From: Streptomyces sp. NK15101
GTDB taxonomy: Bacteria; Actinomycetota; Actinomycetes; Streptomycetales; Streptomycetaceae
Direction of reading: 5' to 3'
Assembly (NCBI RefSeq): GCF_020400725.1
Contig: NZ_JAINVG010000002.1
Coordinates: 145,748-209,747 of the forward strand
DNA: 64,000 nt
The translations under genes and the position numbers were made by a program. This document shows, one piece after another, positions 26,831 through 32,774 of the stretch (positions are counted from its first letter, which is position 1; the number at the start of each line of letters is the position of its first letter). The notes below the pieces were generated by a model, which saw nothing but the letters and a program-made list of their open reading frames with translations, was not told the origin of the DNA and did not search any database.

Positions 26831-28357
26831 ATGGAGTGGATTACCGCAGAGAACGTCATCGCCGTGGGGACGGCCCTCGTCGGTGTCCTGGTCACGCTCG
26901 CCGTCGTCTGGATCGACCGGTTCTCGCCCCAGCGCAAGCGGCTCGGCTACCGCGTGCAGCTCAACACCCCGCTCCACCGGGAGGAGAACCGCGACAGCGA
27001 GGTCATGACCGTGCGGGAGGGCCAGGTCGTGGGGATGGCCGCGCCCGCGAACGGATCCACGCTCGTCCTCCTCCGCATCGAGAACGACCGCGAGCTCGAC
27101 ATCAGCCCCGAGGACTACGGCGCCTCCGCCGAACCCCACGGCCTGAGGATCACCTTCGGCGAGCGGACCGTCCAGGGCGTGGTCGCCACCATCCCGGCCG
27201 GCTGGGACTCCGTCCGGGACGACCTGGAGCGCGCCCCCAAGCTCGGCCGGGACGGCAACGCCGTCCTCGTCCCCAAGGTGGCCCTCGAACGCGGGCAGTA
27301 CTTCAAGCTGCTCGTCCAGCTCTCCGGCGGCGTCGCCGACCGGGACGTCAAGATCGACGGAAGCCTCCAGGGCGGCACGATCCGGCGCAACCGGAGCACC
27401 ACGCCCGACGAGAAGCCGGCCAGGTTCAGCCCGACCGCGCGGAACGTCACCGTCGTCCTCACCGCCTGCGTCATGGCCCTGGCCGCGATCATCGTCCGCG
27501 AGCAGACCCCGCCGCCCATCGGCTGCACCCGGGGCGCCCTCACCCTCACCGGCTCGACGGCCTTCGCCCCCGCCCTGCGGGCGGCGGCACGGCAGTACGA
27601 GAAGGACTGCGAGGGCTCCACCGTGACCGTGGACGTGCACGGCTCGACCGCCGGGATCCGGGAGCTCGCACAGGCGGGGGCGGAGGGGGACGCCGTCATC
27701 GCCTTCTCCGACGGGCGCAAGCCGGGCGGTTTCCCCGAGCTGCGGGAGAACATGGTCGCCGTCTCCCTCTTCACCCTCGTCGTGAACGACGGGATCCCCC
27801 TCGACGACCTCACCCTGGACCAGATCCGGCGCGTCTACCGCGGCGAGATCCGGAACTGGGGCGAGCTCGTCCCCGGCGTCGACCGGCCGGTCCTCCTCGT
27901 CAGCCGGGACGCCGGCTCCGGCACCCGGCAGGTCTTCCAGCGCCGGGTCCTCGGACGCAACGAACCCGCCAACTCCTCGCAGGACTGCGAGACCTCCGAC
28001 GACCCCGAGTCGAAGGTCGTCCGCTGCGAACTCGACTCCACCGAACAGGTCCTCGGCACCGTCGCCGAACTCCCCGGCGCCCTCGGCTACGCCGAACTCC
28101 GCGCCACCGAAGGGCGCGAGGGCCTGCACCGGGTGGCCGTCGACGGACGGCGGCCCCTCGTGGAGGAACTGGGCGAGTCCGGCTACCCGTACCGGGAGAC
28201 CGAGTACGCCTACACCCGGGGCCTGCCCCCGGCCGACTCCCTGACCTCCAGCTTCCTCGCGTACCTCCGGTCGGGACGCGGCCAGGACGTCATCAGCGCG
28301 CACGGACACCTGCCCTGCGCGACCCCGGAGGGGCTGCCGGTGTGCGGAGAGGGCTGA
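26831..28357 (+). CDS. Membrane-anchored PstS-like substrate-binding protein
   Basis: A 508-residue protein with two transmembrane helices, at about 7-27 (VIAVGTALVGVLVTLAVVW) and 204-223 (VTVVLTACVMALAAIIV), separated by about 175 residues that are predicted to be cytoplasmic. The C-terminal 270 residues resemble a phosphate-type periplasmic-binding protein: LTLTGSTAFAPALRAAARQY, VDVHGSTAGIRELAQAG, IRRVYRGEIRNWGEL and the anion loop SRDAGSGTRQVFQ. Here the binding domain is tethered instead of being a lipoprotein, and no ABC transporter follows. Instead a sensor kinase gene starts 34 bp later, so I infer ligand sensing rather than uptake. Confidence 0.82.
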   Translation: MEWITAENVIAVGTALVGVLVTLAVVWIDRFSPQRKRLGYRVQLNTPLHREENRDSEVMTVREGQVVGMAAPANGSTLVLLRIENDRELDISPEDYGASAEPHGLRITFGERTVQGVVATIPAGWDSVRDDLERAPKLGRDGNAVLVPKVALERGQYFKLLVQLSGGVADRDVKIDGSLQGGTIRRNRSTTPDEKPARFSPTARNVTVVLTACVMALAAIIVREQTPPPIGCTRGALTLTGSTAFAPALRAAARQYEKDCEGSTVTVDVHGSTAGIRELAQAGAEGDAVIAFSDGRKPGGFPELRENMVAVSLFTLVVNDGIPLDDLTLDQIRRVYRGEIRNWGELVPGVDRPVLLVSRDAGSGTRQVFQRRVLGRNEPANSSQDCETSDDPESKVVRCELDSTEQVLGTVAELPGALGYAELRATEGREGLHRVAVDGRRPLVEELGESGYPYRETEYAYTRGLPPADSLTSSFLAYLRSGRGQDVISAHGHLPCATPEGLPVCGEG

Positions 28358-28391: not shown

Positions 28392-30278
28392 GTGGAGTCA
28401 TTGAACGCGGAAGATCCGGTCAGCGTCGGCCCGTTCCGTCTGATCGGCCGCCTCGGGGTCGGCGGGATGGGCCGGGTGTTCCTGGCGCGCTCGGCCGGCG
28501 GGCGGACCGTCGCGGTCAAGGTGGTGCACGCGGAGCTGGCCGCCCAGGACGAGTTCCGGCGCCGCTTCGCCCGCGAGGTCGCCGCCCTGGAGCGGGTCGG
28601 CGGCACCGGCACCGCGCCCGTCCTCGGCTCGGACACCACCGCCGACGCGCCGTGGGTCGCCATCGGATACGTACCGGGCCCCTCGCTGCGGACCGTCGTC
28701 GGCGACGAGTTCGGGCCGCTGCCGCCGGCGACCGTACGGGCCCTGGCCTCCGGGCTCGCCCGCGCCCTCGACCACATCCACGCCGCCGGACTCGTCCACC
28801 GCGACCTCAAGCCGTCCAACGTGCTGCTGACCGTCGACGGGCCGCGGATCATCGACTTCGGCATCGCCCGCGCCGTCGACGCCGTCGCCGACGGCGGCAA
28901 CCTGACCACCACCGGGGCGGTCGTCGGCTCCCCCGGCTTCATGTCGCCCGAGCAGGTCCGCGGCGACCACGTCGGCCCCGCGTCGGACGTCTTCTGCCTC
29001 GGGTCCGTGCTCGCGTACGCGGCGACCGGCCGCGCCCCCTTCGGCACGGCGGACAGCGGCGTCCACGCCACCATGTTCCGCATCGCCCACGACGAGCCCG
29101 ACCTGACGGACCTCCCGCCCGAGCTCTCCGGACTCATCCGGGCCTGCCTCGCCAAGGACCCGGCGGCCCGGCCCACGGCCACCGAGATCGTCGAGACCCT
29201 CCCGGTCGCCGACCCCTGGCTCCCGGCGGACGTCCTGGCACGGCTCGGCCGGCACGCGGCGCAGCTGCTCGAGGCGGAGGGAGCCGCCCCCGCGGCGGGC
29301 GCCCCGGCCGCCTCCGACACTCCCCCGCCGGCCGGCGGCGCGGTCCCCGGCGCCGGTACCGCCGCCGCGCCCGCTCCGCCCCGGCGCCGGGGCCGCACCG
29401 CCCTCCTCGCCGCCGCCACGGCCCTCGTCGTCGCGGCGGCGGCCACCGTCGCGTACGTCTACTGGCCCGGCCGGACCGACGGCGGCAGCGGCGGCACCGC
29501 CGACGGCGGCCGGAAGAACGGCACCGCCACCGGCCGCCCCGCCGGGATCGTCCCCGCCGCCTTCCTCGGCGCCTGGGAGGGCGTCCTCAAGGGCACGGCG
29601 AACGCGCCCTACGAGACCAGCCGGATCGAGATCACCCAGGGCCCCAGGGGCGCCAAGGCCGCCGTCTACACCCACGTCACCGGCGAACTGCTGTGCATCG
29701 GCCGGGCCACCCTGATCTCCGCCACCGACAGCGAACTCGTCCTCGGCGACGCCGAGGTCACCGAGAGCGTCCCCGCCCAGCGCTGCACCCCGGCCGCCCG
29801 CCAGACCCTCAGGCTGCGCTCGACCGACGTCGTCGAATGGGGCTCCGGCGTCGCCAGGAGCACCTTCCAGCGGGTCAAGGCCGGACCGGACGTCGTCCCC
29901 GCCGCCTACGTCGGCACCTGGAAGCAGGCGCCGGACACGGTGACCCAGCCCGAACCCGACCGCTGGTCCTACCGGGTCACCATCACCCAGGGCCCGGTCG
30001 GAGCCCCGCTCGTGCGCTTCGAGCAGTCGTACCCGCGCATGGACGACCAGGGGAACCTGCTCGCCGAGGACATCGACTGCGCGGCCACCGCCGTCGTCGG
30101 CGGCGCGGGCTCCCTCCTCGTCATCGGCCCGGAGACCCGCGACCCGGCAAGCTGGGACCCGGACTGCGCCGAGAACGGCTCCAGCAACCTCCGCATCGCC
30201 CACTGGAAGGGCCAGGAGCGGCTCCAGGTCTACGGGATGACGGCGGACGGGGAGCCGGCGGAGTTCGTCCGGGACTGA
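28392..30278 (+). CDS. Ser/Thr protein kinase with duplicated ectodomain
   Basis: A 628-residue receptor-like kinase starting at the GTG at 28392. The kinase domain has GVGGMGRV at 22-29, Lys43, HRDLKPSN from 136 and DFG from 155; all are intact. After an Ala/Pro linker, one helix (about 334-355, RTALLAAATALVVAAAATVAYVYW region) leads outside. The ectodomain of about 240 residues is two copies of one module, each beginning PAAFLGAWEG or PAAYVGTWKQ, with the shared IEITQGPRGA / VTITQGPVGA strand and paired cysteines. It is the second gene after the PstS-like protein and probably its signalling partner. Confidence 0.88.
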   Translation: MESLNAEDPVSVGPFRLIGRLGVGGMGRVFLARSAGGRTVAVKVVHAELAAQDEFRRRFAREVAALERVGGTGTAPVLGSDTTADAPWVAIGYVPGPSLRTVVGDEFGPLPPATVRALASGLARALDHIHAAGLVHRDLKPSNVLLTVDGPRIIDFGIARAVDAVADGGNLTTTGAVVGSPGFMSPEQVRGDHVGPASDVFCLGSVLAYAATGRAPFGTADSGVHATMFRIAHDEPDLTDLPPELSGLIRACLAKDPAARPTATEIVETLPVADPWLPADVLARLGRHAAQLLEAEGAAPAAGAPAASDTPPPAGGAVPGAGTAAAPAPPRRRGRTALLAAATALVVAAAATVAYVYWPGRTDGGSGGTADGGRKNGTATGRPAGIVPAAFLGAWEGVLKGTANAPYETSRIEITQGPRGAKAAVYTHVTGELLCIGRATLISATDSELVLGDAEVTESVPAQRCTPAARQTLRLRSTDVVEWGSGVARSTFQRVKAGPDVVPAAYVGTWKQAPDTVTQPEPDRWSYRVTITQGPVGAPLVRFEQSYPRMDDQGNLLAEDIDCAATAVVGGAGSLLVIGPETRDPASWDPDCAENGSSNLRIAHWKGQERLQVYGMTADGEPAEFVRD

Positions 30279-30310: not shown

Positions 30311-30628
30311 CTAGCGGCCGAGCAGCTGCTGCACGGCCAGGACGGCGTCCAGGAGCGGCTGGCCGACGCCGCCGACGGTCGCGGCGACGGCCCGCAGGAC
30401 CGCGAGCCCGCCCTGCCGCGTCTGCGGCACCGCGAGGGCGGCCGTGGCCCCGTCCAGCTCCTCGGCGACCTCGGGCGCCACCTGGCCGCGCAGCTCCTCG
30501 ACGCGTGCGAGCACCTCCGCGAGCAGCCGCTCCACCTCCGGCGAGGAGTGGTAGTGCACGATGCCCCGGTTGCCGTGCCCGCCGTGCATGTTCACGACGT
30601 CGCCGTAGTAGTTGTCCCCGGCCATCAC
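30311..30628 (-). CDS. Small helical protein with N-terminal Gly/Asn motif
   Basis: A 105-residue soluble protein whose start overlaps the stop of the DUF6232 gene by 4 nt. The first 28 residues, around NYYGDVVNMHGGHGNRG, closely repeat the last 22 residues of the DUF6232 protein. The rest is predicted helical: SPEVERLLAEVLARVEELRG looks like a short coiled coil, followed by an Ala/Val/Leu-rich segment to LLAVQQLLGR-like residues at the end. I know no family function. Such a terminal Gly/Asn motif shared by two neighbours recalls amyloid-type signalling motifs that link receptors to effectors. That is inference only. Confidence 0.72.
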   Translation of the reverse strand: MMAGDNYYGDVVNMHGGHGNRGIVHYHSSPEVERLLAEVLARVEELRGQVAPEVAEELDGATAALAVPQTRQGGLAVLRAVAATVGGVGQPLLDAVLAVQQLLGR

Positions 30629-31236
30629 TTCACCATCCCCGTGTTGCCGCTGCCGCCGTACATGTTCACGGCGTCCCCGAAGTAGTAGTTGCCGTAGTTG
30701 GTGACCGCCAGCGTCCCCACCGAGGCCTGGAACTCCGCGTTCGGCTTGTCGATCGCCTCGGCGATCTCGCGGACGAGCCGGTCGAGGTACTCGCGCTTCC
30801 CGGTCACCAGGGCCGTGGAGCGCCCGTTCGTCTCGACGGCGAGGACGTCGTGGGACCTGGCGAAGACCACGGAGGCCATGACGCCGAAGTAGTAGGCCAG
30901 CAGGAGCGCGGCGCAGGCCAGGACGAAGCTGAGGACGTCGTCGAGGTCGCTGCCGTCCGATCCGTACTCGTACGAGCTCGACGACGAGTCCGTGAAGTTC
31001 ATGAGGATCAGCAGGACGGCGAGCGTGATCCCGCCCCGCTTCAGGAAACGGCCGAACGCCTCCGCGCGCCGGGGCCGGAGCACGAAGGTGTAGACGCGGA
31101 CGATGTTCTCCAGCGGGTAGGCGGCTCCGTAGACCCAGAGCAGCCGCTTGCTGATGACGAGGCCGTTCCGGGGCGGGGAGGCGGCCGGGACCGGTGGCCG
31201 GGTCGGCTTCGGCGGCGGTGTTCCGTGAGTCTCCAT
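30625..31236 (-). CDS. DUF6232 membrane protein with C-terminal Gly/Asn motif
   Basis: A 203-residue membrane protein. LVISKRLLWVYGAAYPLENI near 26-45 and VRVYTFVLRPRR are typical of DUF6232. Two transmembrane helices follow, at about 68-82 (GGITLAVLLILMN) and 102-125 (VLSFVLACAALLLAYYFGVM), and then a cytoplasmic helical part with VETNGRSTALVTGKREYLDRLVREI spread over 130-160. The C-terminal end is NYYFGDAVNMYGGSGNTGMVK, which the next gene repeats at its N-terminus. The pair overlaps by 4 nt and is convergent with the kinase gene. A role as membrane-bound partner of the small protein is inferred. Confidence 0.8.
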   Translation of the reverse strand: METHGTPPPKPTRPPVPAASPPRNGLVISKRLLWVYGAAYPLENIVRVYTFVLRPRRAEAFGRFLKRGGITLAVLLILMNFTDSSSSSYEYGSDGSDLDDVLSFVLACAALLLAYYFGVMASVVFARSHDVLAVETNGRSTALVTGKREYLDRLVREIAEAIDKPNAEFQASVGTLAVTNYGNYYFGDAVNMYGGSGNTGMVK

Positions 31237-31490: not shown

Positions 31491-32774
31491 CTACAGGAAG
31501 GAGTTGATCTCGATCGTCTCCGTGCGGCCGGGGCCCACGCCGATCGCGGAGATCGGGGCGCCCGACATCTCCTCCAGCGCCTTCACGTACGCCTGCGCGT
31601 TCTTCGGCAGGTCCGCGAAGGTCTTCGCCTTGGTGATGTCCTCGGACCAGCCCGGCAGCATCTCGTAGACCGGCTTCGCGTGGTGGAAGTCGGTCTGCGA
31701 GTACGGCAGCTCCTCGACGCGCTTGCCGTCGATCTCGTACGCGACGCAGACCGGGATCTGCTCCCAGCCCGTCAGCACGTCGAGCTTGGTGAGGAAGAAG
31801 TCCGTCAGGCCGTTGACCCGGGTCGCGTAGCGGGCGATGACCGCGTCGAACCAGCCGCAGCGGCGGTCACGGCCGGTGGTGACACCGCGCTCGCCGCCGA
31901 TGCGGCGCAGCGCCTCGCCGTCCTCGTCGAACAGCTCCGTCGGGAACGGGCCGGCGCCGACGCGGGTCGTGTACGCCTTGAGGATGCCGATGACGCGGGA
32001 GATCTTCGTCGGGCCCACGCCCGCGCCCGTGCAGGCGCCGCCCGCGGTCGGGTTCGAGGAGGTGACGAAGGGGTACGTGCCGTGGTCGACGTCGAGGAGC
32101 GTGCCCTGGCCGCCCTCGAAGAGCACGACCTTGTCCTCGTCGAGCGCGTTGTTGAGGATCAGGGTGGTGTCGGCCACGTACGGCTTGATCTGCTCCGCGT
32201 ACTGGAGCATCTCCTCGACGATCTGCGCGGCGTCGATCGCGCGGCGGTTGTAGAGCTTGGCGAGGAGCTGGTTCTTGCCCTCGAGCGCCGCCTCGACCTT
32301 CTGGGTGAGGATCGACTCGTCGTACAGGTCCTGGACCCGGATGCCGACGCGGTTGATCTTGTCGGCGTAGGTGGGACCGATGCCCCGACCCGTGGTGCCG
32401 ATCTTGCGCTTGCCGAGGAACCGTTCCGTCACCTTGTCGAGGGTGACGTTGTACGGGGTGATCAGGTGGGCGTTGCCGCTGATCAGGAGCTTCGACGTGT
32501 CGACGCCGCGCTCGTTCAGTCCGCTCAGCTCGGAGAGCAGGACCGCCGGGTCGACGACGACACCGTTCCCGATCACCGGGGTGCACCCCGGGGAGAGGAT
32601 TCCGGAAGGGAGGAGATGCAGCGCGTACTTCTGGTCGCCCACGACGACCGTGTGGCCGGCATTGTTGCCGCCCTGGTAACGCACCACGTAGTCCACGGAT
32701 CCACCGAGCAGGTCGGTGGCCTTTCCCTTGCCCTCGTCACCCCACTGAGCACCGAGCAGCACAAGTGCGGGCAC
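31491..32774 (-). CDS. purA: Adenylosuccinate synthetase
   Basis: A 427-residue cytoplasmic enzyme that joins IMP and aspartate with GTP to make adenylosuccinate, the first step from IMP to AMP. The P-loop-like [14 protein letters not shown] at 10-23 carries the catalytic Asp, and NNAGHTVV near 38 the catalytic His. [14 protein letters not shown] and the C-terminal aspartate-binding loop [13 protein letters not shown] are standard, as is the length. The start is the ATG at 32774. It has its own promoter region, divergent from the DAGK-like gene, and is followed by two hairpins. Confidence 0.97.

Follow-up and report, generated by a model that had tools for sequence, protein, structure and literature searches.

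Matched terminal motifs in a DUF6232 membrane protein and its small overlapping neighbour in Streptomyces: a candidate NLR-free amyloid-type signalling pair

We wanted to establish what joins two overlapping genes of Streptomyces sp. NK15101 whose products carry one motif at facing ends. The genes, called D and Q here (Table 1), lie in a window of 64,000 nucleotides, by which we mean the whole stretch of DNA that was analysed. A sequence-only reading had noticed a motif at the C-terminus of D and at the N-terminus of Q, together with a 4-nt overlap of the genes, and had likened the arrangement to bacterial amyloid signalling. The tail of D and the head of Q indeed share one motif, GD-x-VNM-x-GG-x-GN-x-G. 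The overlap is 4 nt if Q starts with GTG and 1 nt if it starts with the ATG directly after; the database protein copy of Q (P0001) starts at the Met of that ATG. With the GTG start Q begins (V)MAGDNYYGDVVNMHGGHGNRGIV, and its NYYGDVVNMHGGHGNRGIV motif sits behind a short leader. The two motif copies are close together, with 14 nt between 30613 and 30628.

Table 1. Features of the D-Q locus, in positions of the window.
Feature	Position	Strand	Basis
Gene D, DUF6232 predicted membrane protein, 203 aa	31236..30625	minus	ORF and Pfam
Gene Q, motif and helical protein, 105 aa	30628..30311	minus	ORF
Overlap of D stop and Q start (GTG)	30625..30628	minus	4 nt
Predicted transmembrane hairpin of D, residues 57-85 and 96-124, between beta strands	30865..31068	minus	AlphaFold m01718788ece0
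C-terminal motif of D, NYYFGDAVNMYGGSGNTGMVK	30628..30690	minus	translation, alignment
N-terminal motif of Q, NYYGDVVNMHGGHGNRGIV	30557..30613	minus	translation, alignment
Helical body of Q, distantly DUF5955-like, helices 30-47, 52-65 and 68-104	30317..30541	minus	AlphaFold

D is a member of DUF6232 (PF19744), a family whose function is unnamed, and exceeded its Pfam gathering cut-off (74.4 bits against 27.4, E = 1.3e-20, residues 27-162). AlphaFold (52 sequences, mean pLDDT 77) modelled D as four strands, the two long helices of the hairpin, two strands and a helix. The hairpin was strongly hydrophobic: 31 of the 37 D proteins examined had two windows with a mean of at least 1.6. A Foldseek search with the D model brought up no solved relative at E ≤ 0.001; a second look gave mostly helical-hairpin matches and barely probed the beta part. 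A PH-like fold, that is a PH domain split by the membrane hairpin, was considered and is not claimed, since Foldseek returned nothing at that threshold. One relative of D weakly matched Saf_2TM (E = 0.0047), which we treat as a lead only.

In the Q model (53 sequences, mean pLDDT 78) residues 4-25 had pLDDT below 50 and were followed by the three helices of Table 1; Foldseek found no solved relative at E ≤ 0.001. The motif residues 192-203 of D likewise had pLDDT below 50. The motif was therefore of low confidence and unstructured in both monomer models, and the possibility raised against the sequence-only reading, that it belongs to a normal globular fold, was not borne out by these models. 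The last helix of Q was of borderline hydrophobicity (23 of 40 proteins; 1.53 in window Q), and no signal peptide was seen in Q by eye. Window Q had no significant Pfam match, no NTPase domain and no match to DUF5955 (PF19380) at E ≤ 1. The body of many Q relatives did align weakly with DUF5955: 19 of 34 aligned family members, window Q not among them, matched PF19380 at E ≤ 1 (best 2.3e-5), and some relatives passed its gathering cut-off (Q of genome G029, 32 bits against 27.1). Canonical DUF5955 is near-universal in the genus (38 of 41 genomes), and the 29 copies viewed had no motif in the stretch shown. Because the match is weak and the canonical copies viewed are motif-less, Q looks like a motif placed before a distant DUF5955-like head. 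No mention of the name DUF6232 or of DUF5955 was found in open-licence PMC papers, and neither D nor Q of the window matched NCBIfam or the PADLOC defence models up to E = 1.

We then asked how regularly the two genes occur together. A profile of 34 Q sequences matched 95 of 392 Streptomyces-type genomes (24%) at E ≤ 1e-6; a search with a single Q sequence matched 57 of 295, and an earlier single-sequence round had yielded 59 D-Q pairs among 65 loci. In the fetched Streptomyces-type loci there were 124 distinct Q places from 96 genomes, with Q matches of fewer than 40 profile positions (motif-only) excluded. D stood immediately upstream on the same strand at 109 of these places. Taking as Q start the candidate nearest to the D stop, we counted an overlap of 4 nt in 88 of the 109 pairs and of 1 nt in 11. 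A search at E ≤ 0.001 found DUF6232 in 68 of 291 Streptomyces-type genomes, and 86 places exceeded the family cut-off. Comparison of coordinates put 80 of the 86 directly before a same-strand Q (among these 80, one D was fused to Q and two places were halves of one broken gene). The six without a Q behind them were the upstream D of genome G074, the D of genome G063, L002 in the window's own genome, L227, whose tail has decayed, L228, of whose tail motif a remnant is left, and L229, a fragment. The genes are thus adjacent in most cases, which favours the sequence-only reading; the exceptions are these six D places and the 15 Q places without D.

In a phylum-wide sample of 296 genomes, DUF6232 exceeded the cut-off in the window's own genome and otherwise only in G491, whose three copies showed neither the motif nor a Q. 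In a class-level sample of 296 genomes the Q profile matched ten at E ≤ 0.001. Half of these ten belong to the genus of the window, its own genome among them. Of the five from elsewhere, three (L142-L144) look like chance and were set aside; the other two, in another family of the class, are proteins of ~480-550 aa (L140 and L141, genomes G644 and G690) that carry a GPVAGTV(YA)-type stretch directly before a Q-like helical C-terminus. A protein search with the Q profile listed 99 proteins, most of them named Streptomyces; Kitasatospora, Actinacidiphila, Amycolatopsis and Nonomuraea contributed a few. RefSeq annotates a D-Q pair in Streptomyces clavuligerus (WP_009999275.1 and WP_003953204.1, at NZ_CP065250.1 4800-5734), also with a 4-nt overlap, in which the D tail is NYYFGDNVNMYGGSNNVGMANS and the Q head NYYFGNTVNMHGGENNTGMVNHQ. 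The 17 plasmid records matching D were all from S. clavuligerus, in which copies lie on the larger plasmids; the 18 matching Q came from S. clavuligerus and from Streptomyces sp. Alt1, the latter beside a DUF6232 gene. Phage records searched with D gave no match, and a scan of a genome-contig collection with window D confirmed no relative.

Further, we compared each D tail with its own Q head and with letter-shuffled controls. For 105 of the 109 pairs the own match exceeded the controls with z > 5, and two more reached z > 3, which makes 107 (median 12.8). The two pairs with z ≤ 3, L203 and L205, look like broken genes, and the Q of L205 lacks the motif; L036 (z = 3.6) and L189 (z = 4.7) matched weakly. 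The shared motif first seen in the window is therefore real, and its presence in both partners is the rule, with L205 as an exception. In the D alignment (A2) G187 was invariant and G194, N198 and G200 nearly so; in the Q alignment (A1) G9 was invariant and G16 and G22 nearly so. The motif consists of ~22% Gly, 15-16% Asn and 10-11% charged residues, compared with 20% charged residues in the Q body.

The motif occurs in several versions: GDxVNMxGGxGNxGxV, NNYGPVVNMNGGxxNxGI, GDxVxQxGxxNxGxI, IGSMRDFYNASGxGxVGR and IGQVGDNFxVxGxxNxGK, and a second D subfamily has a version of its own, GDxIxxYGxGSIGKAxHTGSGDI. D and Q partners carry like versions. The GPV version was found in both partners of 13 pairs, in D only in 3, in Q only in 6 and in neither in 87 (Fisher p = 5e-10 in 109 pairs, kinship not removed; p = 2e-4 in 52 non-redundant pairs, kinship likewise left in). 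The association of versions between D and Q is imperfect.

For a quantitative analysis the 109 pairs were reduced to these 52 non-redundant ones. The mean motif score was 74.8 for D with its own Q, 45.3 for D with another Q and 55.8 for D with another D. When partners were permuted the mean was 45.9 (sd 2.0), and the observed 74.8 was reached in none of 20000 permutations. In 43 of the 52 pairs the own Q motif lay nearer to the D motif than the median motif of another D, and in 49 it lay nearer than the median motif of another Q. We repeated the comparison in a set of 40 pairs (57 of the 59 pairs of the earlier round, two with Q cut short being left out, then reduced at 75% identity). With the distances of the D and Q bodies regressed out, the motif distances still gave a partial Mantel r of 0.54, reached in none of 5000 permutations. 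The own Q ranked first for only 15 of these 40 D motifs and as low as 27th for others, since near-identical versions are common to many pairs.

Seventeen genomes contain two pairs or, as G689 does, three. The true pairing was the best assignment in all 17, narrowly in genome G863, and the own match beat the cross match in 48 of 50 comparisons (the failures were L205 and L189). This suggests that paralogous pairs within one genome are insulated from each other. Such pairs are old subfamilies inherited as units, and inheritance alone would not make the motifs of two different proteins alike. A profile of the motif alone, run over 21 related genomes at E ≤ 1, gave seven strong matches in three genomes, all of them D or Q genes, and two further matches elsewhere with E of 0.3-0.4. 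It did not detect the second-subfamily motif of genome G012, so exclusivity to D and Q holds for the main versions only. For these, and as far as the 21 genomes were searched, the motif is private to the D-Q pair; the profile search that the sequence-only reading had proposed came out in its favour to that extent.

At the sequence level it is thus established that D and Q are mostly neighbours, that their facing ends carry matching motifs and that the two motif copies diversified together. Since every pair retains a matching version of its own, the motif is likely a plug joining D and Q, perhaps an amyloid-like one. A dedicated partnership of D and Q through the motif is very probable. For the nature of the contact we lean, by analogy with known systems, to amyloid-like stacking of the motif, which we hold to be somewhat probable. 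If the motifs instead formed an ordinary beta interface of finite size, such as a two-rung beta-arch or a small solenoid, D and Q would make a stable complex with no polymer and no switch; this would explain adjacency, co-variation and insulation equally well, and one motif copy per chain suits a heterodimer. However, two unrelated chains carry the same motif and not complementary ones, which favours self-like stacking, and the motif is Gly/Asn-rich, charge-poor and of low confidence in either chain alone. We consider such an interface rather unlikely.

We also examined the unpaired, fused and swapped cases. Seven of the 15 D-less Q places keep a recognisable motif (L042, L052, L100, L188, L193, L202 and L209), three are apparent one-motif D-Q fusions (L050, L059 and L099), and the remaining five have another stretch or none. 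Among the neighbours lying up to 3 kb from the D-less Q genes, no terminal stretch stood out as a match. We dropped the three fusions as Rosetta-stone evidence and read them as products of deletion or decay, because L099 departs from Q after GAF and L050 and L059 lack most of D. Two small D-less proteins (L221 and L223) start MSDYRFHVGGDFNGVVGDRNVV and MNEFHTRAGGDIHGVIGSGNIV and combine a differing GGD/GN stretch with a Q-like body. The window's own genome contains a second DUF6232 gene (L002 / L098, contig C153) with an intact GPVVNIRGG-type tail motif and no Q seen behind it. In G074 (L230) there is a D-D-Q run joined by 4-nt overlaps, in which both D carry the motif and one Q follows.

In G063 (L226) the DUF6232 protein ends GDVVMGDKAGRDQYK / HGDVVMGDKAGRDQYKMSGSGN and the next small protein starts GDVVHGDKVGRDQYK / EHIHGDVVHGDKVGRDQYKAGDN. 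The motif they share, GDVVxGDKxGRDQYK, forms a separate class, and between the body of this partner and Q no homology was detectable (hhalign probability 9%). In this one case key and partner were both exchanged with the match kept, so both appear exchangeable. Matches of the G063 partner in three genomes (L234-L236) fell in histidine-kinase-like proteins, kinases by our own reading, and were taken as chance.

The surroundings of the pair were variable. In the window D-Q is flanked on one side by the minus-strand gene at 31491-32774, which we take to be purA, and on the other by a converging Ser/Thr kinase gene (28392-30278, plus strand). A gene for a PBP-like protein (26831-28357) precedes the kinase gene. 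A kinase domain resembling that of the window was found at 14 of 122 D-Q loci, so the kinase is no fixed component of the pair. The fetched DNA included the presumed purA at 4 of 122 loci, or at 1 of 37 when loci of at least 10 kb alone are counted, which indicates differing genomic sites. The most frequent neighbour cluster occurred at 13 of 105 loci (ORFs of at least 100 aa with high third-position GC).

A small overlapping two-gene cassette that is present in about a quarter of the genomes, at differing sites, and whose D seldom occurs without Q could be a toxin-antitoxin-like pair, in which D would perturb the membrane and Q would neutralise it through contact of the motifs. This is improbable, as D precedes Q, the window's genome tolerates a D that has its motif intact but lacks a partner, and the order D-D-Q exists in one genome. 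Least probable is that DNA exchange (gene conversion or recent duplication) keeps the copies alike while the products make no physical contact: the copies do lie close together, the one-motif fusions do resemble deletions between repeats, and identical motif residues had identical codons slightly more often than body codon use predicts (966 of 1410, 0.685, against 0.634), but this value is near the expectation for independent codons, so that recent DNA copying is needless for the likeness, and the conservation of Gly/Asn columns in D and Q alike speaks for selection at the protein level.

Amyloid-like stacking was considered on the basis of known systems. According to PMC7889193, BASS are two-gene clusters of NLR and Bell genes in filamentous bacteria, including actinobacteria, with several motif families; one short motif stands at the C-terminus of one protein and at the N-terminus of the product of an adjacent or overlapping gene, as in D-Q. 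However, the partner with the N-terminal motif is there an NLR (a STAND NTPase with repeats), whereas Q is a protein of ~100-125 aa with a helical head and no NLR. The partner with the C-terminal motif is a Bell, TIR or CHAT protein, whereas D is a DUF6232 protein with no such Pfam annotation. We compared the motif with one BASS3 and one BASS3-like peptide only: 18.5% and 13.7% of 233 motif segments, respectively, reached shuffle p ≤ 0.05, compared with 3.2% of Q-body controls. Since this likeness is weak, we assign the motif to no named amyloid family. The earlier suggestion of an amyloid-signalling-like motif pair is therefore upheld as regards paired conservation, co-variation and low confidence in the monomers, and is little helped by likeness to the two peptides.

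In fungi, as the same paper describes, the HET-S/NWD2, HELLF/FNT1 and HELLP/PNT1 amyloid signalosomes and the systems of the RHIM/PP motif also combine adjacent genes with matched motifs, in several versions that do not cross-seed within one species (PMC7889193). The multi-pair genomes suggest such parallel versions for D-Q as well, here compared by sequence alone; D-Q differs in having no NLR, no recognised HeLo-type domain and another motif. It was by motifs at facing ends of adjacent genes, in parallel versions that do not mix, that amyloid signalling linked to NLRs came to be recognised in fungi and in filamentous bacteria (PMC7889193, PMC9815663, PMC8086366, PMC12261475, PMC12881547). The passages of PMC8195603 examined contained nothing on such motifs. 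Among the matches listed for bacterial amyloid signalling in open-licence PMC literature there was no NLR-free DUF6232 pair. D-Q therefore appears to be an NLR-free form of paired amyloid-type signalling that has not been described previously.

We propose the following course of events. In resting D and Q the motifs would be flexible. Some cue would make Q oligomerise through its DUF5955-like helical head. The motifs of Q would next adopt a cross-beta fold and serve as a seed on which the like motif in the cytoplasmic tail of D is templated. The motifs could meet in the cytoplasm if both ends of D lie there and Q has no signal peptide. Clustering of D would gather the membrane hairpins and change the membrane; to judge from HET-S and Bell proteins, the hyphal compartment would then likely be arrested or die. 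Q would accordingly be the trigger or adaptor and D the membrane-acting end, and the reverse direction is also possible. D is placed at the membrane-acting end because it has a C-terminal motif and a hydrophobic hairpin, like the effectors of BASS pairs, and the Q head is an unlikely killer domain because its motif-less relative DUF5955 is almost universal in the genus. Taken as a whole, that D and Q are joined through their pair-specific motif by homotypic amyloid-like stacking at the membrane, where D acts, is in our view slightly favoured. More tentatively, the pair may be a minimal two-protein, prion-like membrane switch without an NLR. The very small helical protein in the cytosol would then act as template for the DUF6232 transmembrane protein by means of a motif key private to the pair, and several such keys, mutually insulated, would operate side by side within a single Streptomyces genome. 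Membrane damage or cell death as the actual outcome is more doubtful still, although plausible by analogy.

Bacterial amyloid signalling was found by searching beside NLR genes, and a review of these studies states that the searches are biased to NLR and executor architectures and that other mining criteria would be welcome (PMC7889193). D-Q would be such a case beyond NLR-centred searches, in which two families without assigned function gain a testable joint role in about a quarter of the genomes searched. The annotated pair of S. clavuligerus makes the system accessible, and the genomes with several pairs are a natural experiment in the separation of parallel assembly pathways by short motifs. 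In summary, if the proposal is true, amyloid signalling would extend beyond immune receptors, and D-Q would be among the shortest such circuits.
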